Notes under the pieces: model-generated
The model's database searches: none
What the model was told of the DNA's origin: nothing
Seen by the model: only the letters and a program-made list of their open reading frames with translations
Shown: positions 7,002 to 33,723 of the stretch, piece after piece
Numbering within the stretch: the stretch's first letter is position 1
How the letters are laid out: each line of letters opens with the position of its first letter
NCBI GenBank assembly: GCA_021740785.1
Contig: JAIOZI010000008.1
Coordinates: 1 to 64,000 of the forward strand
Reading direction: 5' to 3'
DNA length: 64,000 nucleotides
From: Melioribacteraceae bacterium
GTDB lineage: Bacteria > Bacteroidota > Ignavibacteria > Ignavibacteriales > Melioribacteraceae
Program-made: the position numbers and the translations under genes

Positions 7002-7093
7002 GGTCACTTTTTGGTCATCACTTCTCAAAAAGCTTTGAAAACGGGCTAAAAACGCAATAAATATGGAAATGCGTAGCCTCCATGACTCTCCAC
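7002..7093. repeat. 92-bp direct repeat, copy B
   Basis: Second copy of the 6852-6943 repeat, starting 150 bp downstream of it. It ends in GACTCTCCAC, again tRNA-tail-like. Thirty bases further on, a short T-rich run (about 7141-7148) follows a weak hairpin. The rest of the sequence up to the ettA start at 7459 is AT-rich without a recognisable gene. Confidence 0.6.
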
Positions 7094-7458
7094 CTAGATA
7101 ATTAAAATCTCAATTACAGCGAAATTAAGCCGTTATGGAGGTTTTTTTGTGCCCAGTTGTAATTTGTAGTGGCTGTAGACGTACTTATTTGACCTACTTA
7201 GGTCATTTTTTGGACATCAAATTTTCTGCAATAATAAAATGATATTTTCTGAAATATTTAACTCTCAGCCACCCGACTAGTTTGTTCCTACTTTCTTGCT
7301 ACTAAAATCTTTTCATAACTATACCAATTCTACATACCAACGCTTGATAATGTGAATAAACTAATCTCATTAACCATATACAAAAAGGGTTGCATGTCAG
7401 ATATGGAAATTCATTATGTTTGTTTACAAAATAAAAATTAATTGATAATGGAGATTCA

Positions 7459-9141
7459 ATGAGCGTTGAAGCAAATAAAATCATTTATTCTATGATTGGT
7501 GTAAGTAAGTATCACGATAAAAAACCAATATTAAAAGATATCTACCTTTCATATTTCTATGGTGCCAAGATTGGAGTTTTAGGATTAAACGGTTCTGGAA
7601 AAAGTTCTTTACTAAAAATATTAGCGGGAGTAGATAAAGATTTTAATGGAGAAACTGCAGTCTCGCCCGGTTACACAATTGGTTATTTAGAACAGGAACC
7701 AGTGCTTGATGAATCAAAAACAGTAAAGGGAACAGTTGAGGAAGCTGTTAAAGAAGTTCTTGATGTTATGAAAGAATATGACGAAATAAATGCGAAATTT
7801 GCAGAAGAAATGACAGACGATGAAATGAATGATTTACTTGAAAAACAAGGTAAGGTTCAAGATAAGCTAGATGCTATGGGTGCTTGGGATATTGATTCAA
7901 AACTTCAAATGGCAATGGATGCATTAAATTGTCCTCCCGGTGATACACCTGTTAAGGTACTTTCTGGTGGCGAAAAAAGACGCGTTGCTTTGTGCAGATT
8001 GCTTCTTCAAAAACCCGATATTTTACTTCTGGATGAACCAACAAATCACCTCGACGCTGAGACTGTTGCTTGGTTGGAAGCAGAACTAAACCGCTATCCC
8101 GGGACAATTATAGCCGTAACTCATGATAGATATTTCTTAGATAATGTTGCCGGTTGGATTCTTGAACTTGACCGTGGTGAAGGAATTCCCTGGAAAGGTA
8201 ATTATTCTTCTTGGTTAGAACAAAAGCAAAATCGCCTTGCTCAAGAGGGAAAAAAAGAAACTGAAAAGCAAAAAACCTTGAAAAGAGAGTTAGAGTGGAT
8301 TAGAATGTCACCGAAGGGAAGACATGCAAAATCAAAAGCTAGAATTACATCTTATGAAGAAATGTTAAAAGAAGAAAATGAAAAAGCTCAGAAGGAAATA
8401 GAACTTTATATACCTGCTGGACCTCGATTAGGAAATGTTGTTATAGAAGCGCAAAACGTTTCTAAAGCTTATGGCGATAAACTTCTTTTCGAAAATCTAA
8501 ATTTTGCACTTCCTCCGGGTGGAATTGTTGGTGTTATTGGTCCAAACGGGGCTGGTAAAACTACTTTATTTAAAATGATCTCTGCAAAAGAAGAAGCAGA
8601 TTCCGGTTCTTTTAGAATTGGAGAAACTGTAAAACTTGCTTATTTAGACCAAAGTAGAGAATCTTTAGACCCGGAAAAAACAGTCTGGCAGCAAATTTCA
8701 GAAGGGGCTGATGTAATTCAATTAGGCAATAAACAAGTAAACTCTAGAGCATATGTTGGTCAGTTCAATTTTGGCGGTGGAGATCAGCAGAAAAAAGTTG
8801 GAGTACTTTCCGGAGGAGAAAGAAATAGAGTTCATCTTGCATTAATGTTAAAAGCCGGTGCAAATGTTATTCTTCTTGATGAACCTACAAATGATTTGGA
8901 TGTTAACACAATGCGTGCTTTAGAAGAGGGACTTTTAAACTTTGCCGGCTGCGCAGTTGTTATTAGTCACGACAGGTGGTTCTTGGATAGAATTTGCACG
9001 CACATTTTAGCGTTTGAAGGTAATAGTCAAGTAGTATGGTTTGAAGGAAATTTTTCCGATTACGAGGAAAATAAAAGAGAAAGAATTGGCAAAGATGCAG
9101 ATATTCCTAAAAGAATTAAATACAAAAAACTTACTCGATAA
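7459..9141 (+). CDS. ettA: Energy-dependent translational throttle protein EttA (ABC-F ATPase)
   Basis: Cytoplasmic ABC-F protein of 560 residues (E. coli EttA is 555) that binds the ribosomal E site and gates entry into elongation according to ATP/ADP. Two ABC domains lack membrane segments. Domain 1 has Walker A at about 42-49 (GLNGSGKSS), signature LSGGE at 168-172 and LLLDEPTNHLD. Domain 2 has GPNGAGKTT, LSGGERNRV and LLDEPTNDLD. Between them lies the P-site tRNA interaction motif region with the basic MSPKGRHAKSKAR stretch typical of EttA. The ATG follows GGAGA at good distance. It appears to be a housekeeping gene unconnected with the sugar locus. Confidence 0.95.
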   Translation: MSVEANKIIYSMIGVSKYHDKKPILKDIYLSYFYGAKIGVLGLNGSGKSSLLKILAGVDKDFNGETAVSPGYTIGYLEQEPVLDESKTVKGTVEEAVKEVLDVMKEYDEINAKFAEEMTDDEMNDLLEKQGKVQDKLDAMGAWDIDSKLQMAMDALNCPPGDTPVKVLSGGEKRRVALCRLLLQKPDILLLDEPTNHLDAETVAWLEAELNRYPGTIIAVTHDRYFLDNVAGWILELDRGEGIPWKGNYSSWLEQKQNRLAQEGKKETEKQKTLKRELEWIRMSPKGRHAKSKARITSYEEMLKEENEKAQKEIELYIPAGPRLGNVVIEAQNVSKAYGDKLLFENLNFALPPGGIVGVIGPNGAGKTTLFKMISAKEEADSGSFRIGETVKLAYLDQSRESLDPEKTVWQQISEGADVIQLGNKQVNSRAYVGQFNFGGGDQQKKVGVLSGGERNRVHLALMLKAGANVILLDEPTNDLDVNTMRALEEGLLNFAGCAVVISHDRWFLDRICTHILAFEGNSQVVWFEGNFSDYEENKRERIGKDADIPKRIKYKKLTR

Positions 9142-9381
9142 TCTTAAAATTCTATGGGAATTATTAGATCTTCCGGGAATAGATCAGTTACCAAGTATTC
9201 AATGCAAGCTAACAAACCAAAGCTCAATAAGTCTTAAGAAACATAACAACGCTTATGAGAATCTTTAAAGGCACTTATTGAGTTTATATTCCTCGACGGC
9301 TAAGCGATTAAACACCCTGAAAATCTATCTGATCTCTTAGCAAAAAAGTAACTATTTTTCATTTTTATAAACGAGCAGCAC

Positions 9382-10821
9382 ATGATTAATCAATTAGATA
9401 TACTTAAAAAATATTTTGGTTACACTTCATTCAGAGGTGAGCAGGAAAATATAATTAATAGATTAATTTCTGATAAAGGTCACTCACTTGTTTTAATGCC
9501 GACCGGCGGTGGAAAATCTCTTTGCTATCAGATACCTGCATTAATATTTGAGGGAGGCACAATTGTTATTAGTCCTTTAATTGCTCTCATGCAAGATCAG
9601 GTTGACGCATTAAAGAAGAAAAACATACCGGCTGAATTTATTAACTCAACTGTTAACCCGGCACAAAGAAAAGAACGATTACTAAAATTTGTCGATGGAA
9701 AAGTTAAACTCCTTTACGTAACTCCCGAAAGATTTAGAAAAACAGAATTTGTTGAAGAGATAAAAAAGACAAAAATTTCTCTGCTTGCCGTTGATGAAGC
9801 ACACTGCATATCGGAATGGGGGCATGATTTTCGTCCCGATTATTCGCGTATAGCTGAATTTAGAGATATGATGGGGAATCCATTAACAATTGCGTTAACA
9901 GCTACGGCAACCCGTGAAGTTCAGAAGGATATCATTAATAAACTTGGATTGAAGAATGATGAAATTAAATTGTTCCATCAGGGAATACAGCGACCCAATC
10001 TAAGACTTGATACAGCAGATATTTTTGAAGAAAAAGATTCCTTCGAAGAAATTTATAAAGTGCTTGATAAGTACAAAGGTCCCGGTATAATTTATTTTTC
10101 TCTTATTAAAACACTTGAATATTTCTCCCAGAAGATCGGCGATAAAGGATACAAGCATGGAATTTATCACGGCAAGTTGGAAGCAAGGAAAAGAAAACAA
10201 ACTCAGCGTGATTTTTTATCGGGAAAAGAAAATTTGATTTTAGCTACAAATGCTTTCGGTATGGGAATAGATAAACCCGATATACGATTTGTGCTTCATG
10301 CCGAAGTCCCCGGCTCAATTGAATCTTACTATCAAGAAATAGGGCGGGCGGGACGTGATGGAAAAGACTCTCTATGTAAGCTGCTTTACAATCAGCAGGA
10401 TCTCTACACTCAAATGCAATTTATTAAATGGTCTAATCCGAATGCCGAATACTATGCACGTGTTTATGATATTTTGAAAAATGATTTGGAAGCAGTTAAT
10501 TCTATGGGAGTTGATTACCTCCGCGAACAAATGAGCTTTAAAGATAAAAATGATTTTAGGATTGAAACCGTTCTTTCAATGCTGGACCGTTACGGGGTAA
10601 TAGAGGGAAGTGTGGAAAATAAAAATTTAACTATTGTCGGTGAACTTCCCTGTGAACTTCAAGATGATGAACGGTTGGAAGAGAAACTTTTAAATGATAA
10701 TAAAAAACTTCTCGCTGTAGTAAACTATTTCAAATCAACAGAATGCCGCAGGGTATTTATTTCCGATTATTTCGGATTCCCGGGCGAATCACCTTGCGGA
10801 AATTGTGATGTTTGTGATTGA
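9382..10821 (+). CDS. recQ: RecQ-family ATP-dependent DNA helicase, short form
   Basis: 3'-5' DNA helicase of recombination and repair, 479 residues. Motif I is MPTGGGKSLCYQ (about 39-50), motif II DEAH at 138-141 followed by the RecQ aromatic loop (HCISEWGHDFRPDY), motif V ATNAFGMGIDKPD and motif VI QEIGRAGRDG. The zinc-binding cysteines are at the extreme C-terminus (TECRR...PCGNCDVC). E. coli RecQ has 609 residues. Here the winged-helix RQC and HRDC parts are missing after the zinc domain, so this is the short type found in many Bacteroidota-related genomes. The 240 bp upstream hold only broken frames. Confidence 0.93.
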   Translation: MINQLDILKKYFGYTSFRGEQENIINRLISDKGHSLVLMPTGGGKSLCYQIPALIFEGGTIVISPLIALMQDQVDALKKKNIPAEFINSTVNPAQRKERLLKFVDGKVKLLYVTPERFRKTEFVEEIKKTKISLLAVDEAHCISEWGHDFRPDYSRIAEFRDMMGNPLTIALTATATREVQKDIINKLGLKNDEIKLFHQGIQRPNLRLDTADIFEEKDSFEEIYKVLDKYKGPGIIYFSLIKTLEYFSQKIGDKGYKHGIYHGKLEARKRKQTQRDFLSGKENLILATNAFGMGIDKPDIRFVLHAEVPGSIESYYQEIGRAGRDGKDSLCKLLYNQQDLYTQMQFIKWSNPNAEYYARVYDILKNDLEAVNSMGVDYLREQMSFKDKNDFRIETVLSMLDRYGVIEGSVENKNLTIVGELPCELQDDERLEEKLLNDNKKLLAVVNYFKSTECRRVFISDYFGFPGESPCGNCDVCD

Positions 10822-11024: not shown

Positions 11025-12563
11025 TTATGAAAATATATTGTTATATGTATTTTCAATTTCAGAGACTTCTTCATCAGTTAATTGAGCAAATTCTTTTTCC
11101 CTCGCCCTCTTAGAAAGCTTACCTTCGTTTTGCTCCAAAAAGCCGATTAAAAGAGCTACTGTTTTATCCGGCATATCAAACTTATCATCTAAGTTTTGCT
11201 TAAATAAATCATAGTTAATTAGATACAGAACTTCAGCCGGGATTATATTTTTTACAGTATCTTGAACACATTCAAATAAAAATTCAGCTTGCTTAGTAGC
11301 ATCAAAATATCTGTAATAATCTATTGTCTCATTCAGTACTTTGATGTTATTTCTTTCTGTAACATCCCACTCGATTAATTCCAATAATGGCTGTGAGAAC
11401 GACTCAAGTACCTCTCTATAATTTTCAATATGGTTAAGAATTGACGCAGATACGGGAAATATAATACCATGCTGGGTAAACTCCTTCTTAGTTAATATAT
11501 GATGAATCAAGTACCTATGAATTCTACCATTACCATCTTCAAAAGGATGAATGAACACAAATCCGAATGCTATTATTGCAGCAGCAAGAACAGCATTTAG
11601 GTTATCTTTCAGAAGAAGATTATGTGTTGAAATGAGACCATCCAGCAAAATTTCTAAATCCTCATGTCGAGCCGATATATGTTCCGGTATCGGTTCTTGA
11701 GTTACTCTATCATGTTCACCGACAAAGCCGCCTACTTTTCTAAAACCCATATTTACAAAGCGGTCATTTTCAATTACAATTTGTTGTAGTCGAAGCAATT
11801 CATTTTTTGTCAAATTACTTTTTCCCGCTTGACCAATTGCTCTTCCCCAACGCAACGCTCTATTATGTAGTGGTGTTTCGCCTTCTATATTAAAAGATGC
11901 CTTTGAATCTTTCAGTAATAGAAATGCAGATGCTCTAAGAAGAATATCTTTTTTTATTCCCGTTAAGTAATTGTTTTTTTCACTAAGCAAGTCCGATGAT
12001 ATAAAATTTTCCAATTTATCTGTTTTGGTTATCATTGGGCAAAAATCTCTGGTTCCGAGAAGGTTATTTATTATTCTGTGTCTGTTTGATTTTTCTCCCT
12101 CTGAAATTGCATGTTGCTTTTTATCATCTACTAGTAATACATAATTACCTTTTTTGAGGTCATCAATTTCCAACCTACTGCTCAACAACCACTCGTATAG
12201 AAACCATAATTTTCTGTTGTATTTGCTTAAAGGTTCTATTTGAAAAAGGTCTTTTGCTTCAGTTTTTTTGAGTGCCTCAAATAACTTTTTAAGAATCAGC
12301 AAATTCACACCCTCATATTTCAGTGCAAATACTAGTTGCTTATATAGCGTATCCTCAGGTAAATGGCGCGATGTTAATACTTGCCAGTTTTCACTTTTAT
12401 ACTGTCTTTTTTTATCACTTATTATTGTTAAAGTCTCCGGAATAGGAACATTTAAATTATACGAATCAATAATTGCCCCATAACCAACTAAAGTTCCTTC
12501 CTCCGGAGCTATTCTTTCGTGAAAAACACTTATTCTTTGTGAAATATGTTTATTATTCATCAT
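11025..12563 (-). CDS. Fic-domain protein (predicted AMP/nucleotide transferase)
   Basis: Large Fic protein, 512 residues. The Fic core has the complete catalytic motif HPFEDGNGRIHR at 339-350, including the catalytic His and phosphate-binding GNGR. Such proteins transfer AMP or another nucleotide moiety onto target proteins. An inhibitory-helix motif of the (S/T)xxxE(G/N) type is visible upstream of the core as SFNIEG (S223...E227-G228), so it looks like a self-inhibited class II Fic enzyme without a separate antitoxin. The N-terminal 200 residues are not assigned. No antitoxin gene lies beside it. The start is one of two adjacent ATGs with no clear Shine-Dalgarno sequence. Flanking repeats suggest a gained module. 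Confidence 0.9.
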   Translation of the reverse strand: MMNNKHISQRISVFHERIAPEEGTLVGYGAIIDSYNLNVPIPETLTIISDKKRQYKSENWQVLTSRHLPEDTLYKQLVFALKYEGVNLLILKKLFEALKKTEAKDLFQIEPLSKYNRKLWFLYEWLLSSRLEIDDLKKGNYVLLVDDKKQHAISEGEKSNRHRIINNLLGTRDFCPMITKTDKLENFISSDLLSEKNNYLTGIKKDILLRASAFLLLKDSKASFNIEGETPLHNRALRWGRAIGQAGKSNLTKNELLRLQQIVIENDRFVNMGFRKVGGFVGEHDRVTQEPIPEHISARHEDLEILLDGLISTHNLLLKDNLNAVLAAAIIAFGFVFIHPFEDGNGRIHRYLIHHILTKKEFTQHGIIFPVSASILNHIENYREVLESFSQPLLELIEWDVTERNNIKVLNETIDYYRYFDATKQAEFLFECVQDTVKNIIPAEVLYLINYDLFKQNLDDKFDMPDKTVALLIGFLEQNEGKLSKRAREKEFAQLTDEEVSEIENTYNNIFS

Positions 12564-21681: not shown

Positions 21682-21759
21682 TTAGTTTTAGATAACTAAA
21701 CATATCAAAAAGTTTTTGTATCACAAAATTGATTATTGATAATATATTTAATAAACGAA

Positions 21760-23052
21760 ATGGATAAAATGAATCTCGAAGAGCTTAAAAAGAAAATGGA
21801 TCTTGCCCATGATTATCTGTCCCTTCTAAATGATTTTGACCCTTCAGCCGACAAGTATGCCGGAAACTTCCTTCAGATAATAGATGATAAATTGGGTGAG
21901 TTTAACACGATTGTTAATGAATGCAAGTCAATTGATGAACCAAATACATTAGAAGGAATAAAATCTTTACGACCTGATTCAAGGCAAATTTTTAATGTAG
22001 AAATTTCGAAAGAGGAGTACCGTGAAAAATTAAGCGCTGCTTTACTTGGACGAATGATCGGATGTACGCTCGGGGCGCCGGTTGAACAATGGTCAATTGA
22101 AAGAATGGAAATGCTTGCTCAAAAGAAAGGACAGTCATTTCCTCTGACGGATTATTGGAAATATATTCCCTTCGAAAATGAAGAACGTTACGGTCTATCA
22201 AAGATGATCGAATATACAAAGGGTGGAATGAAAAGTGTCCCGGCGGATGATGATATTGTCTATACTCTTTTGAACCTGCTTATTTTGGAAGAACATGGAA
22301 TTAACTTCACCACTGAAGATATCTCCAAAGCGTGGTTGAAATATTTACCATATGCATGTACCGCCGAGGAAATTACGCTAAACAATTTACAAAATGGAAT
22401 TTCATGGAGTGAGGCTGGTAATATTAATAATCCTTATATCGAGTGGATTGGTGCTGCAATCAGAGCGGATTCATTTGGGTATGTTGCACCCGGTAAACCG
22501 GAACTCGCAGCTAAAATGGCTTATCATGATGCATATTTGAGTCACAGAAGAAACGGAATCTATGGTGAAATGCTATGGGCAGCAGTGATTTCCGCAGCCT
22601 TTATTGTTGATGATCCTTTGATGGCTGTTGAGATCGGACTTTACGAAATACCGGGTACAAGCCGACTTGCAGAAGCAGTTCGATGGGCATTAGATAATGT
22701 AAATCAAGTCAGTGATTATAATCAAGCGAGGAAATTAATTGATGTGAAATTTCCGGGCATGAGTCAGGTTCACACAATTAATAATGCATGTGCTGTTATT
22801 TTCGGTTTAGCACTCGGCGGTAAAAATTTCACAGCAGTAATCGGGAACACTGTGGCAATCGGTTTGGATAATGACTGCACCGCAGCAACAGCGGGAAGTG
22901 TAATCGGTGCAATATTAGGAAAATCCCGAATTGAGCAGCATTGGTTCGAAAATTTTAACAACAGAATAGTTTCCTATCTTAAAAATGAAAATGAATTTTT
23001 AATTGATAATGTGCTGAATAGATTTGAAAAAGTTGTATTTCATAAAAGGTGA
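21760..23052 (+). CDS. ADP-ribosylglycohydrolase family protein
   Basis: Member of the DraG/ARH fold family, about 430 residues. Metal-binding acidic clusters are present: GRMIGCTLGAPVEQW at the first helix, VPADDDIVYTLL and the C-terminal GLDNDCTAATAGSVIGAILG (DxDxxA type), so a di-metal site is likely intact. The first 90 residues are an unassigned helical extension. Family members remove ADP-ribose or, in sugar loci, may act on N- or O-ribosides or related glycosides. Its place in a glycan regulon argues for a sugar substrate (inference). A TTG at 21736 extends the frame, but the ATG at 21760 is more likely. Confidence 0.82.
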   Translation: MDKMNLEELKKKMDLAHDYLSLLNDFDPSADKYAGNFLQIIDDKLGEFNTIVNECKSIDEPNTLEGIKSLRPDSRQIFNVEISKEEYREKLSAALLGRMIGCTLGAPVEQWSIERMEMLAQKKGQSFPLTDYWKYIPFENEERYGLSKMIEYTKGGMKSVPADDDIVYTLLNLLILEEHGINFTTEDISKAWLKYLPYACTAEEITLNNLQNGISWSEAGNINNPYIEWIGAAIRADSFGYVAPGKPELAAKMAYHDAYLSHRRNGIYGEMLWAAVISAAFIVDDPLMAVEIGLYEIPGTSRLAEAVRWALDNVNQVSDYNQARKLIDVKFPGMSQVHTINNACAVIFGLALGGKNFTAVIGNTVAIGLDNDCTAATAGSVIGAILGKSRIEQHWFENFNNRIVSYLKNENEFLIDNVLNRFEKVVFHKR

Positions 23053-23112: not shown

Positions 23113-23167
23113 TTGACTTTTTGTTGCTATTTAGTAAAATTAGCAAATGCAATTGTTAACGTTAACA
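23113..23167 (+). promoter_or_regulatory. Promoter with LacI-type operator, site 3 (corrinoid operon)
   Basis: TTGACT (23113-23118), 16-bp spacer, TAAAAT (23135-23140), then the perfect palindrome TGTTAACGTTAACA at 23154-23167, immediately before the corrinoid protein gene. It controls the methyl-transfer and sugar operon that follows. Confidence 0.8.
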
Positions 23168-23181
23168 TAAAGAGAATGAAT

Positions 23182-23853
23182 ATGAACGAAATTTTGGAAA
23201 AAATATCTTATTGTATCGAAAGAGGAAAATCCGATAAGCATGCAAAATTCCCTCCGGATTTAAAAGATCAAGATGGTGTGGTTGAATATACTCAAGCTGC
23301 GCTTGATAACGGGATATCTGCGCAGTCGGTTCTCAACGACGGAATGATGCCCGGAATGAACAAAATAGGTATCAGATTCAGAAACGGAGAAATATATGTT
23401 CCCGATGTATTAATCGCTGCCAAAGCAATGAAAGCTGGGATGCAATTAATTAAACCTTTTTTTCAATCGGGTGAAGCGAAACATAAAGGCAAAATAGTTC
23501 TCGGTACGGTTGCCGGCGACTTGCACGATATAGGTAAGAATCTGGTTGCAATGGTTATGGAAGGCGGCGGCTGGGAAGTAGTTGATATTGGTGTTGATGC
23601 AAATGCACAGAAATTTATTGAAGCTATTGAAAATAATGATGCTAAAGTCGTTGGATTGAGCGCTCTGCTAACAACAACTATGAATAATATGGAAGCAATT
23701 ACGAAAGAAATAAAGTCAAAATTTCCCGAAGTTACAGTTGTAATCGGCGGCGCTCCTGTGACTGAAAAATTTTCTAATTCGATCGGTTCGGATTTTTATT
23801 CGGCTGATCCACAAGGGGCACTCGATTTTCTTAATGAGAAACTGGAAATTTAA
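23182..23853 (+). CDS. Corrinoid (B12-binding) methyltransferase protein, MtaC/MtbC type
   Basis: Small corrinoid carrier of 223 residues that holds a methyl group on cobalt between two methyltransferases. Residues 1-90 form the helical cap domain (LNDGMMPGMNKIGIRFRNGEIYVPDVL). The Rossmann B12 domain follows, with GTVAGDLHDIGKN (D113, His115, Gly118: the DxHxxG cobalt-ligand motif), GLSALLTTTM and VIGGAPVT. It equals the cobalamin module of MetH as a separate protein. First gene of the operon; the next gene starts immediately after its stop. The frame extends to a TTG at 23113 inside the promoter; the ATG at 23182 has AAAGAG at the right distance. Confidence 0.93.
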   Translation: MNEILEKISYCIERGKSDKHAKFPPDLKDQDGVVEYTQAALDNGISAQSVLNDGMMPGMNKIGIRFRNGEIYVPDVLIAAKAMKAGMQLIKPFFQSGEAKHKGKIVLGTVAGDLHDIGKNLVAMVMEGGGWEVVDIGVDANAQKFIEAIENNDAKVVGLSALLTTTMNNMEAITKEIKSKFPEVTVVIGGAPVTEKFSNSIGSDFYSADPQGALDFLNEKLEI

Positions 23854-24585
23854 GTGAAGGATCAAGATAACTGTATATGGATTGGGGGGACGGAGATTGA
23901 GAGTCTTCATAAATTCGATCTGGAACCTTCAGATATAAAAATAAACAAACAATTTCTTTATCAGTCATTGGGCTATCAAAACGAAATTCCTGAACCGGTT
24001 TTAATTGAGATTGATAAGACAATTGATTATCTAAATGCACTTGTTGAAATTCAAGCCGGATTTAAATTAATATCCCCTGAACGTGTAAAATTTCATTCCG
24101 GATATATTTTAATTGATGATGAAAGATTAAATACAAAAGCGATCATCGGAAAGAAACTTGTTGATTCTGAAACCCTTGCCATTTTTGTCGCGACTCTTGG
24201 TTCAAGATTAGAAGAAAAATCAAAAAAGTTAATGTCGGAAGGAGATCTGCTTCAAGGCTACATACTGGATGCAGTTGGGTCGGAGTTAGTTGAGCAAACA
24301 ACCGACTGGCTTCAATTGCAAGTTGAGAATTTATTAAGTGAAAATAATCTGAAAATCACGAATAGGTACAGCCCAGGTTACTGCGGCTGGAACGTAGTTG
24401 ACCAGCAAATCATTTTTTCCTTTTTACCCAAACTATTTTGCGGAATTAAACTTTCGGAAAGTTCATTAATGGTCCCGATTAAATCTGTCAGCGGTGTAAT
24501 CGGAATAGGAAAAAATGTTATTAAGTCAGATTATGAATGTTCAATCTGTGACATGACTAATTGCTCACGAAGAAGGGTGATGTAA
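23854..24585 (+). CDS. MetH activation-domain protein (corrinoid reactivation)
   Basis: A 243-residue stand-alone version of the S-adenosylmethionine-binding activation domain of methionine synthase. The signature RYSPGYCGW is followed by IKLSESSLMVPIKSVSGVIGIG. At the C-terminus, CSICDMTNC gives a CxxCx4C cluster, which members beside corrinoid methyltransferases share. Its likely job is reductive remethylation of the oxidised corrinoid protein encoded just upstream. GTG start directly abuts the previous stop, with GGA eight bases upstream, so translation is coupled. The next gene begins one base after its stop. Confidence 0.88.
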   Translation: MKDQDNCIWIGGTEIESLHKFDLEPSDIKINKQFLYQSLGYQNEIPEPVLIEIDKTIDYLNALVEIQAGFKLISPERVKFHSGYILIDDERLNTKAIIGKKLVDSETLAIFVATLGSRLEEKSKKLMSEGDLLQGYILDAVGSELVEQTTDWLQLQVENLLSENNLKITNRYSPGYCGWNVVDQQIIFSFLPKLFCGIKLSESSLMVPIKSVSGVIGIGKNVIKSDYECSICDMTNCSRRRVM

Positions 24586-24586
24586 A

Positions 24587-25468
24587 ATGAAAAAAATCAC
24601 TAACGCTGTTAAAGAGGGTAAAATTCTTGTCTCCGACGGAGCGTGGGGAACCTTCCTTCAACAGAAAGGATTGAAACCCGGCGAATCGCCTGAACTCTGG
24701 AATCTTACTCACAGAGATGAAGTGAAATCAATTGCAAAAAGTTATATCAATGCCGGGGCTGATATTATTGAAACGAACAGTTTCGGGGGAAGTACATTCA
24801 AGCTGAATCATTTCGGACTGCAGGATAAAACTTGCGAGTTAAGTAAAGCAGCCGCTGAAATTTCGCGTGAAGCCGCAGGTGATAAAATAGTCATGGCATC
24901 TGCAGGTCCTACCGGAAAATTTTTGATGATGGGTGACATAACAGAAGATGAGTTGTACGAATCATTTAAACTGCAGACACAAGGATTTGTAAACGGCGGC
25001 GCTGATGCGGTTATAATTGAAACATTTTATGATTTAGGAGAAGCCGAACAGGCAATAAAAGCAGTGAAAGAGAATAGTGATCTTGAAATAATTTGTTCGT
25101 TTACTTTTGAAAATAGGAGTGGACAATTTAAAACAATGATGGGAACTTCGCCCGCTGAAGCGGCAAAGGCAGCATTAGATTTCGGTGCAGATATTGTCGG
25201 TACCAATTGCGGATTCGGATTTGTGCCTATGGTTGAAATTATAAACCAAATCAGAAGTGTTGTTGATATTCCAATTTTGGTTCAAGCAAACGCCGGGCTG
25301 CCGGAATTGGACGGACAAAACATTGTGTATCCAGAAACGCCGAAATTCGTTGCAAATGTTGTCCCCGATTTAATTACCGCCGGTGCAAATATTATAGGCG
25401 GATGCTGCGGAACGACACCTGATCATATAAAGGCAATTGTAAAAAAGGTTCGTTCTATCAAAGGATGA
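24587..25468 (+). CDS. Homocysteine S-methyltransferase family protein
   Basis: Zinc-dependent methyltransferase, 293 residues, corresponding to the N-terminal homocysteine module of MetH or to BHMT. The zinc cysteines are C208 in GTNCGFG and C273/C274 in GGCCGTTPDH; SDGAWGTFLQ and ADIIETNSFGG mark the N-terminal half. With the two preceding genes it rebuilds MetH without its folate-binding domain. It most likely takes the methyl group from the corrinoid protein and makes methionine. One base separates it from the reactivation gene; the ribokinase remnant starts three bases after its stop. Confidence 0.9.
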   Translation: MKKITNAVKEGKILVSDGAWGTFLQQKGLKPGESPELWNLTHRDEVKSIAKSYINAGADIIETNSFGGSTFKLNHFGLQDKTCELSKAAAEISREAAGDKIVMASAGPTGKFLMMGDITEDELYESFKLQTQGFVNGGADAVIIETFYDLGEAEQAIKAVKENSDLEIICSFTFENRSGQFKTMMGTSPAEAAKAALDFGADIVGTNCGFGFVPMVEIINQIRSVVDIPILVQANAGLPELDGQNIVYPETPKFVANVVPDLITAGANIIGGCCGTTPDHIKAIVKKVRSIKG

Positions 25469-25471
25469 TTA

Positions 25472-25874
25472 ATGATGTCTATGAGAAAAAAAATTATTGT
25501 TGCAGGAAGTACCAATACGGATTTAATAATTAAACTGCCGAATTTGCCCAAACCGGGTGAGACAATAATCGGCTGAAATTTTGATCATTTCCGGAGTAGA
25601 AAATGTAATAATTACAATGGGTGCAAAGGGATGCTATCTAAAGACTAAGCAAATGAGTTCAATGATTCCTACATTTAAAGTTGATGCTGTTGATACAACT
25701 GCGGCAGGAGATGTTTTTAACGGAGCAATAGCAGCGGCATTAGCTGAAGGAATGGAATTACCGGATGCAGCCGTGTTTGCATCAGCCGCCGCGGTAATTT
25801 CGGTTACGAAAATAGGGGCGCAGACCTCAATCCCGAATCAAAATGAAATGAATAATTTTATTAAAAACAGATGA
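25472..25874 (+). pseudogene. rbsK: Ribokinase-family kinase, internally deleted
   Basis: Remnant of a PfkB/ribokinase gene. The first 34 codons (25472-25573) encode a normal N-terminus (KKIIVAGSTNTDLIIKLPNLP, KPGETIIG) and then hit TGA at 25574. The C-terminal part continues in another frame from about 25574 to 25874: GVENVIITMGAKGCYL and the catalytic-loop region DTTAAGDVFNGA. A full-length ribokinase has about 300 residues; about 180 in the middle, including the GGKGxN substrate loop, are gone. The flanking genes are intact and in operon spacing. The upstream stop and lost substrate site mean no active kinase. A separate protein could start inside 25581-25874, but would lack the sugar site. 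Confidence 0.88.
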
Positions 25875-25881
25875 ATCATAA

Positions 25882-26283
25882 ATGAAGAAAAACGGAATAA
25901 TAAACTCACAACTCTCAAGAATTATTGCTCAATTAGGACATAGCGATAAATTGGTTATTTGCGACTGCGGTCTGCCGATACCAAGAAATTCCGAAATCGT
26001 TGACCTTGCTTTAATAAAGGGAATACCGGAATTTATCCCAACTCTAAAAGCGATTCTTGATGAAGTAAAAATTGACGGGGCAACTATTGCTGAGGAAATA
26101 AAGGAAATCAGCAAGCCTCTTTATCAAGAACTAGCTCTTAATTTGGATGGGATAAAATTGCGAACCGTACCTCATGAAGAATTTAAAAAAATGACAAACG
26201 GAAACGGTAATATAATATTTATCCGTACAGGCGAGGCAACTTCGTATGCAAATATTATTTTGGAATGCGGCGTAACATTTTAG
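25882..26283 (+). CDS. rbsD: D-ribose pyranase (sugar mutarotase)
   Basis: RbsD/FucU-family mutarotase of 133 residues; it interconverts pyranose and furanose forms of ribose or related sugars. N-terminal MKKNGIINSQLSRIIAQLGH has the catalytic His20; CDCGLPIP follows. The C-terminal IRTGEATSYANIILECGV is the family end. It sits seven bases after the broken ribokinase, its usual operon partner, so the pair was once a standard rbsK-rbsD arrangement, though here within a corrinoid operon. Cytoplasmic. Confidence 0.93.
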   Translation: MKKNGIINSQLSRIIAQLGHSDKLVICDCGLPIPRNSEIVDLALIKGIPEFIPTLKAILDEVKIDGATIAEEIKEISKPLYQELALNLDGIKLRTVPHEEFKKMTNGNGNIIFIRTGEATSYANIILECGVTF

Positions 26284-26844
<561 letters not shown>

Positions 26845-26846
26845 AG

Positions 26847-28001
26847 ATGACATCAAAAGAAAGATTTTTAAAAGCTTTGAATAGAGAAGTACCGGATAGA
26901 TTACCGGTAACAACACATCATCTTCAGCCTTATTTTTTAGATAATTTCATGGATTGTTTATCTATTGATGAAACATTCGATAAGTTTGGGCTGGATCCGA
27001 TAAATTGGTTTCAAGCATATAAACCTGATGAATCAAAAGGTGAGTATTATGATCCGGATCATATACCCGGATTTCTTGAAGCACGGAGGATAGTCAGCGA
27101 CTCATGGATTATAAAATCGAAAGAACTGCCGAATGATCAGTATAAAACAGTTCGATATAATTTTATCACTCCCGACAAAACGCTTTCGATGGTTCTGCAA
27201 AGTAATGAATACACATCATGGGTTTCGGAAAGATTAATAAAAGAAAAAAAAGATATTGATATCATTGCAAAATTCGCAACAAATCCATTATGTGATGTTG
27301 AAGCAGTTAACCGCGAAGCTGAAAAATACGGTCAGAGAGGAATGATCCGGGGATTAATTAATTTCTTTGATGTCTATGGTCAATCCGGTTGCTGGCAGGA
27401 TGCTGCCGTATTATTCGGAATTGAAAACTTAATAATGGCAACGTTTGATGACTCGGAATGGATTCACAAATTTTTGGAAATTTTATTCGAAAGAAAGAAA
27501 AAGTTTTTAGCTTCATGTAAAGGCGCAAAATATGATCTTCTCGAGCATGGCGGCGGCGATGCTTCTTCAACGGTAATTTCACCGCAGATTTTTGAAGAGT
27601 ATATCGCACCATATGACGGTAAACTTATTGACATCGCACACGAAGCCGGTCAGCGTGTAGTTTATCATACATGCGGGGGAATGATGCCAATATTGGAAAT
27701 TATTGCTGAAATGAAACCTGATGCGATGGAGACTTTTACGCCTAAGGATATGGGCGGAGATACAATTCTTTCCGAGGCAAAAAAACGTATCGGTGATAAA
27801 GTATGCATGATCGGCGGGTTTGATCAATTTCATTTCTTTAAGAATTGCGAACCTGAAGATACAAGAAAAGCTGTTAGGGAATGCTTTGATGCAGCGGGCG
27901 GAAATGGTGGTTATATACTTTCACCATCCGATCATTTTTTTGAAGCCGACCCGGAATTGCTATTTGCGTTTGCTGATGAAGCTCGGAAATGTACTTATTA
28001 A
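26847..28001 (+). CDS. UroD-fold corrinoid methyltransferase paralogue 1
   Basis: Uroporphyrinogen-decarboxylase-fold protein of 384 residues. It starts with MTSKERFLKALNREVPDRLPV, the typical opening of the methyltransferase branch. A HxCG motif is present (H274, C276, in VVYHTCGGM). The third zinc ligand of MtaA-type enzymes is not there: the C-terminal loop reads LSPSDHFFE, leaving H363 as a possible substitute. Its position beside a corrinoid protein argues for methyl transfer, not haem synthesis. It could be the subunit that removes the methyl group from the substrate. Starts two bases after the isomerase stop. Confidence 0.82.
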   Translation: MTSKERFLKALNREVPDRLPVTTHHLQPYFLDNFMDCLSIDETFDKFGLDPINWFQAYKPDESKGEYYDPDHIPGFLEARRIVSDSWIIKSKELPNDQYKTVRYNFITPDKTLSMVLQSNEYTSWVSERLIKEKKDIDIIAKFATNPLCDVEAVNREAEKYGQRGMIRGLINFFDVYGQSGCWQDAAVLFGIENLIMATFDDSEWIHKFLEILFERKKKFLASCKGAKYDLLEHGGGDASSTVISPQIFEEYIAPYDGKLIDIAHEAGQRVVYHTCGGMMPILEIIAEMKPDAMETFTPKDMGGDTILSEAKKRIGDKVCMIGGFDQFHFFKNCEPEDTRKAVRECFDAAGGNGGYILSPSDHFFEADPELLFAFADEARKCTY

Positions 28002-28028
28002 AATAAATATCTAACTGGGGAGGTATTG

Positions 28029-29186
28029 ATGAGTAAGGTAATCGAAATCGATGTTTCAGTTGAGGAACTGGAAAGAAGAAAAGAGCGGATAAGAAAGACG
28101 AAAAATTTTGAAACACCCGATCGTGTAGCTGTTATACCGGCTATTGCGCATAGGTTTTTAATTCCTAAGGTTGGCGGCAGTTTTAAAAATTATTATGCGA
28201 ACCCTGAGGTTATGCTGCACACTCAAATACTTGCACAGAAATGGCTGATGGAGAATATTAAAACGGATGCACACTCAATAACCGGTGCCTGGGTAGGAGC
28301 TTGGACGGATTTTCAGAACACTTACGAAGCGGGAAGTTTGGGATGCAATGTTATTTTTCAAGATGATGATATTCCATGGGTTGGTCCCGGATGGATAAAG
28401 GATGAAAATGATATGATAAAGCTGGAACAAATCGATTTTATACACAGCGGTATCAATGCAAAGCAATTACTTTACCGCGAGAGAATGATGATGGCAGCAG
28501 ATAAATACCCGGTGAAATTTCGGGACGGTGAAATATTTTTCCCGGGTGAAAATCCATCGCTAACTCACACATCATCATCCGGAGTATTTGGTATAGCCGG
28601 TGATTTAATGGGTCAAACTGAAGTTTTTACTGCAGTTTATGAACGACCTGATTTTGTAAAGGAATTATTGAAAATTATAACCGAAAAATTAATTGAGTAT
28701 TTCGATTTCTGTTGGGAAATTGAAAAACTTCCAGTTCCAAAAGATTTTGGTTGGACTGATGATTTAGCAGTGTCGCTTTCACCGGAGCAATTTGTTGATA
28801 TCGTTCTTCCCTTTGAAAAACAATTGAGAGATAATTTCGACGGATATGCAAGTTTGCATATGTGCGGTAAATCAGATCATCTTCTTGAAATATTTCGTGA
28901 TGATCTGCGGATACATGAGCTTCAAGGTTTTGGTTATCAGGTTGATCTTGATTTAATAGGTAAAGTGATGGGCGGTAAGGTTGTGCTAATCGGCAATGTT
29001 GATCCAATGCTGATTCATTCCGGGAAACCGGATGAGGTTAAATCCGCAGTAAAAAATGTTATTGAAAAACTTGGACATTATCGCGGACTAATTATTCAAG
29101 ACGGAAATAATATTCCTCCCGGATCACCTTTGGAAAACATTAATGCAATGATGGAAGCTGCTGAAGAATTTGGAAGATATGATTAA
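28029..29186 (+). CDS. UroD-fold corrinoid methyltransferase paralogue 2
   Basis: 385-residue UroD-fold protein. HxCG is conserved (H277, C279 in SLHMCGKSDH), followed by VLIGNVDPMLI. The third-cysteine loop reads QDGNNIPPGSP instead of SxGCDVP, so one zinc ligand is changed. The N-terminal half has a distinct Trp-rich stretch (AWVGAWTDF, PWVGPGW) that could form a substrate pocket. ATG at 28029 chosen: GGGAGG lies six bases upstream. The TTG at 28026 is only one codon longer. Operon spacing to both neighbours is short. Role in O-demethylation inferred from context. Confidence 0.82.
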   Translation: MSKVIEIDVSVEELERRKERIRKTKNFETPDRVAVIPAIAHRFLIPKVGGSFKNYYANPEVMLHTQILAQKWLMENIKTDAHSITGAWVGAWTDFQNTYEAGSLGCNVIFQDDDIPWVGPGWIKDENDMIKLEQIDFIHSGINAKQLLYRERMMMAADKYPVKFRDGEIFFPGENPSLTHTSSSGVFGIAGDLMGQTEVFTAVYERPDFVKELLKIITEKLIEYFDFCWEIEKLPVPKDFGWTDDLAVSLSPEQFVDIVLPFEKQLRDNFDGYASLHMCGKSDHLLEIFRDDLRIHELQGFGYQVDLDLIGKVMGGKVVLIGNVDPMLIHSGKPDEVKSAVKNVIEKLGHYRGLIIQDGNNIPPGSPLENINAMMEAAEEFGRYD

Positions 29187-29197
29187 TTGGAGAATTG

Positions 29198-30316
29198 ATG
29201 ATTGAAGAAAAGAAACTTTTTCTGGAGAAACTCTGGAATCTTGAAAATTCTGATAGACCCTGCTTTATTATTGGAGATTTAGGACCAAAAGTAAAAGGTG
29301 GAAAGGCTATAAAAAATGCTCTCTTCTCAACAGAAGGAAGTGTGAGCGTCAAAGAACGTTTACTTGATCCTGATAAATACCTTGAAGCTCAACTCGATGA
29401 AATTGAACAGCAAAAAAGTCTGAAAGGGGAATACGTCCCGGCATTATGCCCAAGTCTTGGTGTAATTACATTCCCCTCAGCATTCGGATGTGAAGTGATT
29501 TGGTGGGAAAATGATTTCCCTGCGGTAAAACCTTTAGAAGAAGATTTCGATATTTCGGACTTACCGGATCCCAAACTTACTGATGGTGTACTCGGAAGAA
29601 TTCTCGATTATACTAAGTTGTTTTTATCAAAGACAGATGGGAAAATTCCAATTAGGTTGACCGATATCCAAGGTCCCCTTGATAATGCTGCGATGATATT
29701 AGGACCAAATAATTTTCTGATGAAACTTCACACAGATCCGAATTCTGTGCACGTTTTGATGAAAAAAGTCACTGACTTAATGATAAATTATATAAAAGAA
29801 TTTCGTGCAGTTGTAAAGCAAAACGGCGGCGAATTTGTTCCCGCAATGTTCCATCCTTGGATGCCCGACGGTTCGGGTATATCAATCTCAAATGATGAAT
29901 GTGTGATGATAAGTCCGGAAATGCATGATGAATTTCACGTACCCTATTTGAACCAAATAAGTGAAGAGTTCGGTGGAATTTACATACACTCATGCGGAGA
30001 TTGGACGCATCAATTTACAAGTTATGACAATATTTATAATTTGGTCGGTGTTGAATTCGGCGCCAGTGAAGCTCCTTACGATAAAGTACTCGATCATTTT
30101 AACGGTAAAATCGTTACAGCTTGCAGAGTTGGATTTAATCGCGATATTAAATTTACCGGTATGAATGATTTTGTCTCCAAAATTATTTCCACAGCTAAAA
30201 CAACCAAAGGCTTATTTATTAATGTCGATATTACCAACGGAATCACAGAAGAGCCTTGGGAAGAAACCGATTTAGAGCAGATCTATTCTTTAATTTATAA
30301 TTCAAAATCAGAATAA
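29198..30316 (+). CDS. UroD-fold corrinoid methyltransferase paralogue 3
   Basis: 372-residue UroD-fold protein. HxCG is conserved (H264, C266 in YIHSCGDWTHQ). The next strand reads KIVTACRVGFNRD, and no Cys is found in the C-terminal loop, so it is the most divergent of the four paralogues. LCPSLGVITFPSAFG and PAMFHPWMPDGSG are not in the other copies and may be substrate-specific. GGAG precedes the ATG at 29198 by five bases. It follows paralogue 2 by 11 bp and precedes GH31 by six. Function is inferred from fold and location only. Confidence 0.78.
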   Translation: MIEEKKLFLEKLWNLENSDRPCFIIGDLGPKVKGGKAIKNALFSTEGSVSVKERLLDPDKYLEAQLDEIEQQKSLKGEYVPALCPSLGVITFPSAFGCEVIWWENDFPAVKPLEEDFDISDLPDPKLTDGVLGRILDYTKLFLSKTDGKIPIRLTDIQGPLDNAAMILGPNNFLMKLHTDPNSVHVLMKKVTDLMINYIKEFRAVVKQNGGEFVPAMFHPWMPDGSGISISNDECVMISPEMHDEFHVPYLNQISEEFGGIYIHSCGDWTHQFTSYDNIYNLVGVEFGASEAPYDKVLDHFNGKIVTACRVGFNRDIKFTGMNDFVSKIISTAKTTKGLFINVDITNGITEEPWEETDLEQIYSLIYNSKSE

Positions 30317-30322: not shown

Positions 30323-32689
30323 ATGAATCAACCAGTAAATGCCCCGGAAGAATTCGAATGGATAAGTAGTCTCATTGATTGGAATGAGAAAGATAAACGA
30401 ATCGATTTAACTGTTGAAACAAATAAAGCGAACAAGTTCATTATAAGCTTCTCGAATTATGATGATGAAATCATCCGGTATACGATTAGTACATCAGGGG
30501 AAATTAAATCATTCCGTAACGAAATGCTGGTCATTGATAAAAATGATTTTAAGAAGATAAATATACGTGAAAGTGAAGATCAACTGATTTTAAATTTCGG
30601 GGTTTATAGTTTTGCTATAACAAAGAAGAAATTTGATTTGAGGTTAAGCGGAGATAATAATGATTTCATCTGCGGCAGCAACCCTTTGGATGTGGATGGT
30701 TTGGGCAGACCGTTTGTTAAACAGTTCGGAATTACAAAAAGTGAAAGCGGTATAAAAATTAATCAGTCTTTTCATCTTAGGCAGGACGAGCATATTTTTG
30801 GCTTAGGAGAAAAGTTCACAAGATTGAACAAAGTCGGGCAGAAAATTATTTCATGGACCCAAGATGCATTCGGTTCAACGAGTGAGAGATCTCATAAAAA
30901 CATTCCTTTCATGTGGAGTACAAAAGGATACGGTTTATTTGTCAATAATTCTTCCAGAATTAATTGGGATCTTGGAGTAACTTCCTGTCAATCTTATTCG
31001 ATAGAAGTTGAAGATAATTATTATGATGTTTTTATTATTCCTGGTAAATCCCCGGCAAAAATAATAAAGAATTACAGTCATTTGACCGGTGTTGCACCGG
31101 TTTTACCCAAATGGAGTTTCGGTCTTTGGATTTCATCCGGAGGAACATACAGGGATCAAGAATCTATTGAAAAATTGATCGACGGTTTGTTGCTGAATGA
31201 TATAGCTGCAGATGTTGTTCACATCGATCCCTGGTGGATGAATTGGCGTAAATATTGTGATTTCAAATGGAATTGTGAAGCTTTCCCTGCACTTGAAAAA
31301 TTTATCGAAAAATGTAAATCTCTCGGTTTGAAAATTTGTTTGTGGGAACACCCCTACATTTCAATAGAGAGCGAGCTTTTTAATATCGGAGTAGAGAAAA
31401 ACTACTTCCTTAAGAAACCGGATGGAAATGTTTACGTTATCGATTACGGATTATCACTGGCGCCGCGACCGGACGGTAATGTAAGGATTGCGGATAAAAC
31501 TGAGTCGTGGAATGCTCCGGTTGCAATTGTTGATTTTACAAATCCCAAGGCTTCCGATTGGTACAAAGAATTACACCGACCTGTTTTGAAGATGGGTGTG
31601 GATATTTTTAAAACTGATTTTGGTGAGGATATTCCCGCTGATGCAATATTTTACAATGGTGAAACAGGCAGCACAATGCATAATCTTTATCCGTTGTTGT
31701 ATAATAAAGTTGTGTCGGAAGTGACAAAAGAGTTTGTAGAAAATGGTATTGTTTGGAGCAGAGCTGGAACTGCAGGTAATCAGCGATACCCCGTTTGCTG
31801 GTCGGGAGATCCCGCTTCTGATTTCGAAAGTTTAGCATGTACAATTCGCGGCGGCTTGTCGATAGGAATGAGCGGAGTTCCGTTTTGGAGCCATGATATA
31901 GGGGGATATAGAGGAATACCATCAGATGTTGTCTACACAAGGTGGGCGCAATTCGGATTACTATCATCGCACAGCCGGATGCATGGCGATAGCCCGAGAG
32001 AACCATGGTATTTTAACTCGCGAACATTAGCTATTGTACGTGAATTCATCAAAATTAGATATGAACTATTTCCATATTTGTATCATACGGCAATGCAGGC
32101 TAGTAGAACCGGTATGCCTGTTATAAGAGCAATGCCGCTTGCATTTCCGGATGATCTTAATTGTTATGATAAAGACCTGCAATACATGTTGGGTGATTAT
32201 TTACTAATTGCACCGGTTTATAATGAATCCGGTAAACGACATGTTTATTTGCCTGAAGGTGATTGGATAAATTTTTGGACAAATGATAAGTTAACCGGAA
32301 ACAGAAACATTTTTACTGAATCAACTTTAGACAAGATTCCTATTTTTATAAAAGCGGATTCAATCATTCCAAAGATGAATTTCTCTTCCCGAATTCCTGA
32401 ACATCTTTGCAATCCAATAATTTTTGAAATCTATCCGACAAGTGAAGGCGAACTCGAATTCTATGAGAAGGAAGGTAATTCAAAAATTAAGTTCAGCTTA
32501 CATGAAGAACTTAAGATAGATTTTAAATCTGATATAAGTAGAAAAATGATTTTTAGATTAATCACAACTAAAAATTTTTCAAGAGTAGTTAGTGATAAAA
32601 AGGAAGAGATAGAATTGAAAAGAAATATTACCGGTTTCGAGATTAAAATTCCCGGAAAGCAAAATAATATTTCTTTACAAGTTCAGTAA
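30323..32689 (+). CDS. GH31 alpha-glycosidase, alpha-xylosidase (YicI)-like
   Basis: 788-residue retaining alpha-glycosidase. An N-terminal beta domain is followed by a (beta/alpha)8 barrel with nucleophile D432 in GVDIFKTDFGED and acid/base D496 in VCWSGDPASDFESL; GVPFWSHDIGGY follows. The KTDFGE-IP context is the one of E. coli YicI alpha-xylosidase, unlike the DMNE context of alpha-glucosidases. There is no signal peptide, so it acts in the cytoplasm on imported oligosaccharides. It is the last gene of the corrinoid operon (six bases after paralogue 3). Convergent with the next gene, with only a 20-bp gap. Sure of family, fairly sure of xylosidase type. Confidence 0.9.
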   Translation: MNQPVNAPEEFEWISSLIDWNEKDKRIDLTVETNKANKFIISFSNYDDEIIRYTISTSGEIKSFRNEMLVIDKNDFKKINIRESEDQLILNFGVYSFAITKKKFDLRLSGDNNDFICGSNPLDVDGLGRPFVKQFGITKSESGIKINQSFHLRQDEHIFGLGEKFTRLNKVGQKIISWTQDAFGSTSERSHKNIPFMWSTKGYGLFVNNSSRINWDLGVTSCQSYSIEVEDNYYDVFIIPGKSPAKIIKNYSHLTGVAPVLPKWSFGLWISSGGTYRDQESIEKLIDGLLLNDIAADVVHIDPWWMNWRKYCDFKWNCEAFPALEKFIEKCKSLGLKICLWEHPYISIESELFNIGVEKNYFLKKPDGNVYVIDYGLSLAPRPDGNVRIADKTESWNAPVAIVDFTNPKASDWYKELHRPVLKMGVDIFKTDFGEDIPADAIFYNGETGSTMHNLYPLLYNKVVSEVTKEFVENGIVWSRAGTAGNQRYPVCWSGDPASDFESLACTIRGGLSIGMSGVPFWSHDIGGYRGIPSDVVYTRWAQFGLLSSHSRMHGDSPREPWYFNSRTLAIVREFIKIRYELFPYLYHTAMQASRTGMPVIRAMPLAFPDDLNCYDKDLQYMLGDYLLIAPVYNESGKRHVYLPEGDWINFWTNDKLTGNRNIFTESTLDKIPIFIKADSIIPKMNFSSRIPEHLCNPIIFEIYPTSEGELEFYEKEGNSKIKFSLHEELKIDFKSDISRKMIFRLITTKNFSRVVSDKKEEIELKRNITGFEIKIPGKQNNISLQVQ

Positions 32690-32709: not shown

Positions 32710-33723
32710 TTAATTCTTCGTTGAATTGAAATCTTCCAACGCTTTATAAAATGCTCTAATATTTTCCTCGGGAATATGCGGCGGTACATCACATCCGCTG
32801 GATAATATATAATTTTTATATTCAGAAGTTTTGTTCAGTAATTCAATTGTTGCATTGTAAACGGTCTGTTCATCAGCCATCTTAAAAATATTTACCGGAT
32901 CAATGTTACCCATAACGAGTTTTGAATTGTCAATAACCTTCAACGCATTCGTAATTTCACATGCATTCCCAAAATGGAAAGCCCCTGCGCCGGTTAACTC
33001 TATTTCTTTAAGTAAATTGTTTGTATTGCCGCAGTTGTGATAGACAATTAAAAAATTCTCGTCTTGAATTTCATCTACAATGGTTTTTATAAAAGTTGAG
33101 GAAAAAATTTTGCAATCACCTGGTGACAACATTCCCGCAGCAGGTTCTGCGATTACAATTCCGTTCACACCTGTTTCTTTAAATGCTTTGATGTACTTTA
33201 TCAAAAAAGATGTGATTTTTTCCAATAGCATTTCTATTTCTTCAGAATTTATTAATAGAGCAACCATGAGTTCGGAGAAATCAAATAACCTGCCCGCTAA
33301 ACTGAATGGACCGATACAACCTGCAAGCACGGGTTTATCACTGATATTTTTAGCTGCCAATTCAGCCGCACGTAAATATTCCGGCAGCCGTCCGCTGCTT
33401 AAATCCGGAATTGTCAATTCTGTAATTTCATTAATATCGGAAATCAATCTACCATGTACGGTTGGGATTTCATCTTTACTAAATACGATTTCTGATCCAA
33501 ATGCTTCAGCTTCGATCGATAGATCCATTATCATTGCAGCCGCTGCGGATGGATATTTATCCGATAAAATTTTAATCGCGCAGTACTGAATTTCACCATC
33601 GGTTACAGCATCTAATACATTTTTATCAATTTGCTCAATACCGGGATGAGTCATAATTGGTATAGCTGCTGTTTTATTGCTTGTCAATAAATCATTCTTC
33701 CAGTCGGTCATATTAAATATCAT
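32710..33723 (-). CDS. UroD-fold methylcobamide:thiol methyltransferase (MtaA/MtbA-like), paralogue 4
   Basis: 337-residue UroD-fold protein with all three zinc ligands of MtaA/MtbA-type methyltransferases: H229 and C231 in VYHNCGN and C311 in LSSGCDVPPHIPEENI; MGNIDPV is also typical. Zinc in these enzymes activates a thiol acceptor, so this copy is the best candidate for the methylcobamide:thiol step, in parallel with the homocysteine methyltransferase at 24587. It is encoded on the opposite strand to the other three paralogues, in an operon with GH2, GH38 and the symporter. Its start lies nine bases after the GH2 stop; no clear Shine-Dalgarno. Confidence 0.85.
   Translation of the reverse strand: MIFNMTDWKNDLLTSNKTAAIPIMTHPGIEQIDKNVLDAVTDGEIQYCAIKILSDKYPSAAAAMIMDLSIEAEAFGSEIVFSKDEIPTVHGRLISDINEITELTIPDLSSGRLPEYLRAAELAAKNISDKPVLAGCIGPFSLAGRLFDFSELMVALLINSEEIEMLLEKITSFLIKYIKAFKETGVNGIVIAEPAAGMLSPGDCKIFSSTFIKTIVDEIQDENFLIVYHNCGNTNNLLKEIELTGAGAFHFGNACEITNALKVIDNSKLVMGNIDPVNIFKMADEQTVYNATIELLNKTSEYKNYILSSGCDVPPHIPEENIRAFYKALEDFNSTKN

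Follow-up and report, generated by a model that had tools for sequence, protein, structure and literature searches.

A putative folate-free corrinoid methyltransferase module that may couple sugar O-demethylation to methionine synthesis in Melioribacteraceae

What is the role of three adjacent genes that encode, as separate proteins, counterparts of the cobalamin, activation and homocysteine modules of methionine synthase (MetH)? These genes lie in a stretch of 64,000 nucleotides (hereafter the window) from a Melioribacteraceae bacterium that feeds on sugars of plants and microbes, where a first-pass annotation placed the three modules at 23182-25468 and read them as a split MetH. Pfam matches agree with the module assignments, and the coordinates are correct (Table 1). 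Taken together, the sequence evidence makes it probable that the genes belong to a modular, folate-free methyltransferase system, in which O-demethylation of sugars would be coupled to methionine synthesis by a route other than folate.

Table 1. Features of the proposed methyltransferase module and its surroundings in the window
Feature	Position	Strand	Evidence
LacI-type palindromic operator (predicted), TGTTAACGTTAACA	23154-23167	.	perfect palindrome just before the corr start
corr, corrinoid (cobalamin-binding) methyl-carrier protein	23182-23853	+	PF02310 (E 1e-27) and PF02607 (E 3e-19); DxHxxG
act, stand-alone MetH-type reactivation (AdoMet-binding) protein	23854-24585	+	PF02965 (E 3e-9); sequence-level match to 1J6R (E 4e-13); extra SPGYC and C-terminal CxxC-x4-C
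bhmt, homocysteine S-methyltransferase, proposed methyl acceptor enzyme	24587-25468	+	PF02574 (E 7e-70); zinc cysteines
Broken ribokinase gene	25475-25871	+	two frames encode residues 1-44 and 206-305 only; found by tblastn with the intact L070 and L046 relatives
D-ribose pyranase RbsD	25882-26283	+	NCBIfam PRK11797 equivalog, above cut-off
Cupin sugar isomerase, D-lyxose isomerase family	26299-26844	+	PF07385 (E 1e-9)
uroA, UroD-family methyltransferase, candidate O-demethylase	26847-28001	+	PF01208; metal-site His-Cys-Asp
uroB, UroD-family methyltransferase	28026-29186	+	PF01208 (E 5e-29); His-Cys-Asn/Ser
uroC, UroD-family protein	29195-30316	+	PF01208 (E 3e-17); His-Cys-Val
GH31 glycoside hydrolase, at the end of the probable operon	30323-32689	+	PF01055 (E 1e-85)
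uroD, MtbA/MtaA-like UroD protein, convergent to the operon	32710-33723	-	PF01208 (E 8e-54); complete His-Cys-Cys zinc site
LacI-family regulator, likely to bind the operator sites	49998-51032	+	PF00356 and PF13377

Three MetH-like genes beside an intact metH

The three genes are tightly packed, with no bases between corr and act and a single base between act and bhmt. The start of corr was set at ATG 23182, since the mechanical open reading frame from TTG 23113 adds 23 amino acids that are absent in relatives. The DxHxxG motif of the corr protein is kept in 76 of 76 homologues. Its best NCBIfam match is an MtgC-type corrinoid protein (197 bits, compared with 133 for metH), and catabolic corrinoid proteins of the MtgC/MtbC type outscore MetH in the comparison. 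Another small B12-binding protein of the same genome (L060, G000:C85:6040-6696) is 22% identical to corr and has an unrelated neighbourhood. The zinc cysteines of bhmt (NC and GGCC) are conserved in all 51 homologues, and a phylogenetic tree places the window protein in a corr-linked clade of homocysteine transferases. The proposed acceptor enzyme is a PF02574 protein, with no match to the MetE-type catalytic domain PF01717.

The genome (4.85 Mb, 99.9% complete) also contains a separate full-length metH, the presence of which had been left to be checked; it is intact, encodes 1233 amino acids with all four domains and lies at C13:38143-41730. The first-pass annotation was right that the pterin-binding module is missing and that no folate methyltransferase lies nearby: a profile search found no PF00809 gene within the 64-kb window, genome-wide this domain occurs only in folP and the intact metH, and the whole genome has no MtrH (PF02007). 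Other carriers of the module resemble it, with PF00809 genes limited to folP and MetH in 17 of 17 module-bearing genomes scanned. MetH-kind activation and homocysteine domains were also present in all 18 module-bearing genomes tested, encoded either in one long frame or, for a few genomes (e.g. G039, G255 and G373), apparently as two pieces.

Since folP and the 1233-residue metH account for the pterin-binding genes of this genome, the trio is an extra module, neither the housekeeping methionine synthase nor a broken-up copy of metH. The intact metH led us to reject the trio as the cell's methionine synthase and, together with the closer kinship of corr to MtgC-type proteins, as a cut-up metH. 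The notion of a split MetH therefore had to be given up, as metH is retained, corr is nearer to the MtgC/MtbC type, and act carries a cysteine motif that MetH lacks. The trio looks instead like a modular methyltransferase system of catabolism in which homocysteine is the acceptor.

The assignment of the activation module was also supported by structure prediction. The act model (pLDDT 92) resembles 1J6R, the MetH activation protein of Thermotoga, with a Z score of 21.1 and MetH reactivation domains with Z scores of 17-19. The protein retains RxxxGY, the AdoMet motif of MetH. In addition, SPGYC and a C-terminal CxxC-C are present in 95 of 95 act homologues, giving four invariant cysteines (C177, C229, C232 and C237 in the window protein) that are missing from the corresponding positions of MetH from the same genome and may form a metal site (Fe-S or zinc). 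No RACE activase (PF14574) is encoded in this genome, and 19 of 20 module-bearing genomes likewise lack it. Because the genome has no RACE, act is the likely corrinoid reactivator and probably does the RamA/RACE-type job in this organism.

Sugar genes and UroD-family donors

A probable operon runs unbroken from the trio to position 32689, and the gaps following the trio are 2 to 24 bases long. The ribokinase gene of this operon has lost its middle part (about residues 45-205) and its frame is broken; intact relatives are found in the related loci L046 and L070. The cupin isomerase has partners in the same two loci (64% identity in L046, 62% in L070), and L040 encodes partners of uroB (74% identity) and uroC (65%) as well as a GH31 protein at the equivalent place (55%).

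A scan of the window for sites within two mismatches of TGTTAACGTTAACA revealed seven, compared with 0.39 expected, and none of 100 shuffles reached this number. The seven palindromes (0-1 mismatch; 15145, 21668, 23154, 41571, 46820, 51102 and 51157) stand before or between genes for a sugar ABC transporter, GH65 and other glycosidases, suggesting a sugar regulon that extends across most of the window. A copy with one mismatch is located just upstream of corr-act-bhmt in L067, from another Melioribacter. The ADP-ribosylglycohydrolase gene at 21736-23052 was dropped as a candidate part of the module, as related loci showed no partner for it and it has its own operator at 21668. Farther upstream, the minus strand encodes a Fic/DOC family protein (11025-12563).

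The predicted structure of uroA (pLDDT 84) matches UroD and MtbA with Z scores of 24-26. Since CdmB was absent among the fold matches listed, uroA was placed within the UroD superfamily by tree and motifs only. None of the scanned window genes matched the MttB donor family (PF06253). O-demethylases of the UroD family are established (OdmB, VdmB, MtvB and MtoB; PMC13222342), and the residue pattern of the metal site separates O- from S-methyltransferases in this family (Kountz and Balskus, PMC10418091). Tree and residues show that the UroD proteins linked to GH115 form one clade with a His-Asp-Gly site, while His-Cys-Asp is found in seven of seven members of the uroA clade, the window uroB has His-Cys-Asn, and His-Cys-Cys is present in all 11 members of the clade of uroD, a protein that also matches 4AY7 (E 9e-15). 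By the published rule, the His-Asp-Gly and His-Cys-Asp clades would be O-type and uroD thiol-type. In five other loci (L040, L046, L069, L070 and L082), genes of the uroA clade stand with ribokinase, RbsD or the cupin isomerase, and this company makes an O-methyl pentose of the ribose kind the favoured substrate for the window.

A second group of sugar genes is found in relatives. GH115 enzymes release (4-O-methyl)glucuronate from xylan, and few methylated sugars are commoner in plant biomass than 4-O-methylglucuronic acid. A GH115 gene precedes the module in four Melioribacteraceae, including the cultured Melioribacter roseus. The gene order is GH115, GH43, corr, bhmt, act, UroD in L050, L052, L057 (from M. 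roseus) and L092, with an additional GH10 in front in L052 and L057. The order is GH115-GH10-corr-bhmt-act-UroD in L083 and GH115-GH43-corr-bhmt-UroD in L147. Across 20 genomes, four of the seven GH115 genes lie within about 5 kb of corr. Because the module follows GH115 in these relatives, O-methyl sugars are likely methyl donors. The earlier suggestion that a catabolic methyl source is coupled to methionine gains indirect support from the GH115 genes beside the module in relatives and from the sugar-type operator in front of it in the window. GH115 itself is absent from the window genome, to which the link with xylan cannot be transferred directly, and xylan was rejected as the window's own substrate. 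The genome paper on M. roseus reports a cluster for xylan (Mros2087-2093), one member of which is a GH10 with CBM4/9, and leaves methyltransferases unmentioned (PMC3534657). No description of 4-O-methylglucuronate in connection with corrinoid or anaerobic demethylation was found in the open-access literature, where absence is not proof. UroD proteins of the uroD class (MtbA-like, with the full His-Cys-Cys site) occur as the second UroD in the xylan-type loci L057, L122 and L147.

Recurrence and exchange of donor and acceptor genes

Among 395 genomes sampled evenly from the phylum, a close act protein was detected in about 20 and a close homocysteine transferase in 16, all of them within those 20 (Fisher p 4e-25, uncorrected for kinship). 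A genome scan produced 80 named loci, which according to record titles extend beyond Bacteroidota and Ignavibacteria to Fibrobacter, Spirochaetales, Calditrichota and others. Among the 59 named loci with both corr and act, 26 have bhmt, 13 have a pterin-binding gene, usually followed by MTHFR, and none has both (p 2e-4). A UroD or MtaB donor gene lies within 10 kb in 19 of the 26 bhmt-type loci, and in most cases it is UroD. In L078 from a Bacteroidales bacterium (7005-10690), a bona fide, full-length MtaB is located directly before corr-bhmt-act, which represents a possible route from methanol (or another methyl compound) to methionine.

Since bhmt and pterin-binding genes occupy 26 and 13 loci and never the same one, and donors are of the UroD or MtaB type, donor and acceptor genes appear to be interchangeable parts fitted onto a core of corr and act. 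The same recurrent donors and mutually exclusive acceptors back, by inference, the first-pass proposal that UroD-fold proteins replace the folate module. Clusters with the order corr, pterin-binding gene, MTHFR (with DUF5981) and act, often followed by an FGGY sugar kinase, were observed in L102, L103, L112, L114, L117, L118, L140, L144 and L146. They are probably a THF-accepting sister of the module, with THF as the acceptor in some relatives.

Other variants were seen as well. UroD proteins of about 540 amino acids with an extra C-terminal part are present in L080, L088, L098, L123, L125 and L138, followed by bhmt and/or a CobW-family protein beside act, the latter being a possible metal insertion partner. 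PhyH-family genes (2-oxoglutarate oxygenase-like) are inserted into the corr/act clusters of L046, L053, L101 and L127.

Proposed pathway, alternatives and known systems

From these gene arrangements, we infer the following reactions, substrate and direction of methyl flow. The uroA enzyme, helped by uroB and uroC, would transfer the methyl group of an O-methylated sugar, in the window probably a ribose-like methylated pentose, to the Co(I) corrinoid protein, and the demethylated sugar would enter catabolism. In bhmt, a zinc-bound homocysteine thiolate would take the methyl group from methyl-Co(III), producing methionine. Corrinoid oxidized to Co(II) would be re-armed by act using AdoMet and an electron, and a LacI-type repressor would switch the operon on with the sugar.

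A broader version of this proposal hangs in the balance. It holds that such sugar O-demethylation is widespread, with methyl groups of 4-O-methylglucuronate (GH115 loci, including that of M. roseus) and of O-methyl pentoses (uroA/rbs loci) passing via UroD and corrinoid to methionine without folate, that donor and acceptor modules are interchangeable, and that act represents a new class of ATP-independent activators combining a MetH reactivation domain with a four-cysteine metal site. If this is true, these bacteria obtain from hemicellulose not only sugar but also the methyl groups of methionine, with no need for folate in the transfer, and corrinoid methyl transfer works as a kit with swappable donors (UroD, MtaB) and acceptors (homocysteine, THF) and a MetH-type activator replacing the ATP-driven RACE. 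The conserved cluster in the cultured M. roseus makes this reading directly testable.

Several points count against the coupling of sugar demethylation to methionine. The intact metH makes the module dispensable for methionine synthesis, the small demand for methionine could hardly absorb bulk demethylation unless the cell exported methionine, and the window ribokinase is broken. The main weakness for the window itself is that the nearest relatives of its uroABC block (L040, L046, L047 and L070) have no bhmt adjoining the block, and that free-standing bhmt homologues in G263, G093 and G240 fall outside the corr-linked clade in the tree.

Such blocks without a neighbouring bhmt (L040, L046 and L070) would also fit a scheme in which UroD proteins perform both halves of the transfer, one demethylating the sugar and another methylating tetrahydrofolate as an unrecognized UroD-type folate methyltransferase, with bhmt reduced to AdoMet supply for reactivation or to a minor branch. 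Kountz and Balskus left open that an Mlp might be an undiscovered folate methyltransferase (PMC10418091), and related loci do exchange bhmt for a pterin-binding gene, usually with MTHFR. However, loci in which THF is the apparent acceptor contain a dedicated PF00809 gene, which never occurs together with bhmt, and there is neither a spare PF00809 gene nor an MtrH gene in the window genome. We consider this scheme unlikely.

It is improbable, too, that the methyl groups come from a methyl-sulfur or methyl-selenium compound (methylthioribose or another derivative of MTA, or dimethyl sulfide) and that the module is a system of anaerobic methionine or sulfur salvage. Salvage of this kind was proposed for type 1 mlp clusters (PMC10418091), the operon contains ribose genes, and uroD has the His-Cys-Cys site typical of thiol methyltransferases. 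Yet uroD, the only one of the four with the full site, lies outside the operon, and uroA, uroB and uroC all lack it; none of the window genes scanned was recognized as an MTA/MTR salvage gene, and relatives of the module occupy xylan loci with GH115. Finally, a back-up methionine synthase that uses any methylated corrinoid protein when folate is short, with the sugar genes as incidental neighbours, would have sufficient domains for methylcobalamin:homocysteine transfer and a parallel in core synthases without a folate domain (PMC7857596), but it is very improbable given the operator common to the trio and the sugar transport and glycosidase genes, the tight operon with UroD and sugar genes, and the recurrence beside GH115, GH10 and GH43.

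For the preferred reading, sugar demethylation feeding methionine synthesis, precedents exist for each part (UroD O-demethylases, MtgBCDE and core methionine synthases) and none for their combination in the open-access literature searched. Compared with a split MetH, the trio has PF02574 with zinc cysteines, a cobalamin domain with DxHxxG and an AdoMet-binding reactivation domain; it has no PF00809 methyl-THF domain and does not replace the full-length MetH of the genome. The MesA-MesD core methionine synthases also make methionine without a folate domain, and a corrinoid methyl donor was proposed for most of them (PMC7857596). However, they are MetE-type enzymes, whereas the window acceptor has the BHMT/MetH homocysteine fold (PF02574) and catabolic donors. 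TM0269 from Thermotoga maritima (1J6R) is, like act, a stand-alone reactivation domain of the same fold, but it is annotated as serving methionine synthase, whereas the act family has four invariant cysteines and is found beside catabolic corrinoid genes.

Type 1 mlp clusters likewise pair a corrinoid protein with several UroD-family genes and lack a folate methyltransferase (PMC10418091). They have their own RACE and His-Cys-Cys enzymes and concern methyl-Se/S (PMC10418091), in contrast to the MetH-type activator, homocysteine transferase and mainly non-HCC UroD proteins of the window (HCD in uroA, HCN in uroB, HCV in uroC). The UroD-type demethylases (OdmB, VdmB, MtvB, MtoB and CdmBCA) share the pairing of a UroD-fold methyltransferase I with a small corrinoid protein (PMC13222342). 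In these systems, methyl groups from aryl methyl ethers or chloromethane pass to a pterin carrier via methyltransferase II, and the activase is ATP-dependent (PMC13222342), whereas the window module has a homocysteine acceptor, neither RACE nor a methyltransferase II to THF, and a sugar context.

MtgBCDE of Ruegeria pomeroyi, a methionine synthase in split form, also acts as a glycine betaine demethylase (PMC12478193). As proposed for the window module, its corrinoid, donor and homocysteine subunits are separate, and catabolic demethylation and methionine synthesis meet on one corrinoid protein. Its donor is MttB-like and its pterin subunit MtgD is essential for methionine (PMC12478193), whereas the window module combines a UroD-like donor and no pterin subunit with a MetH-type reactivation domain and a normal metH alongside.
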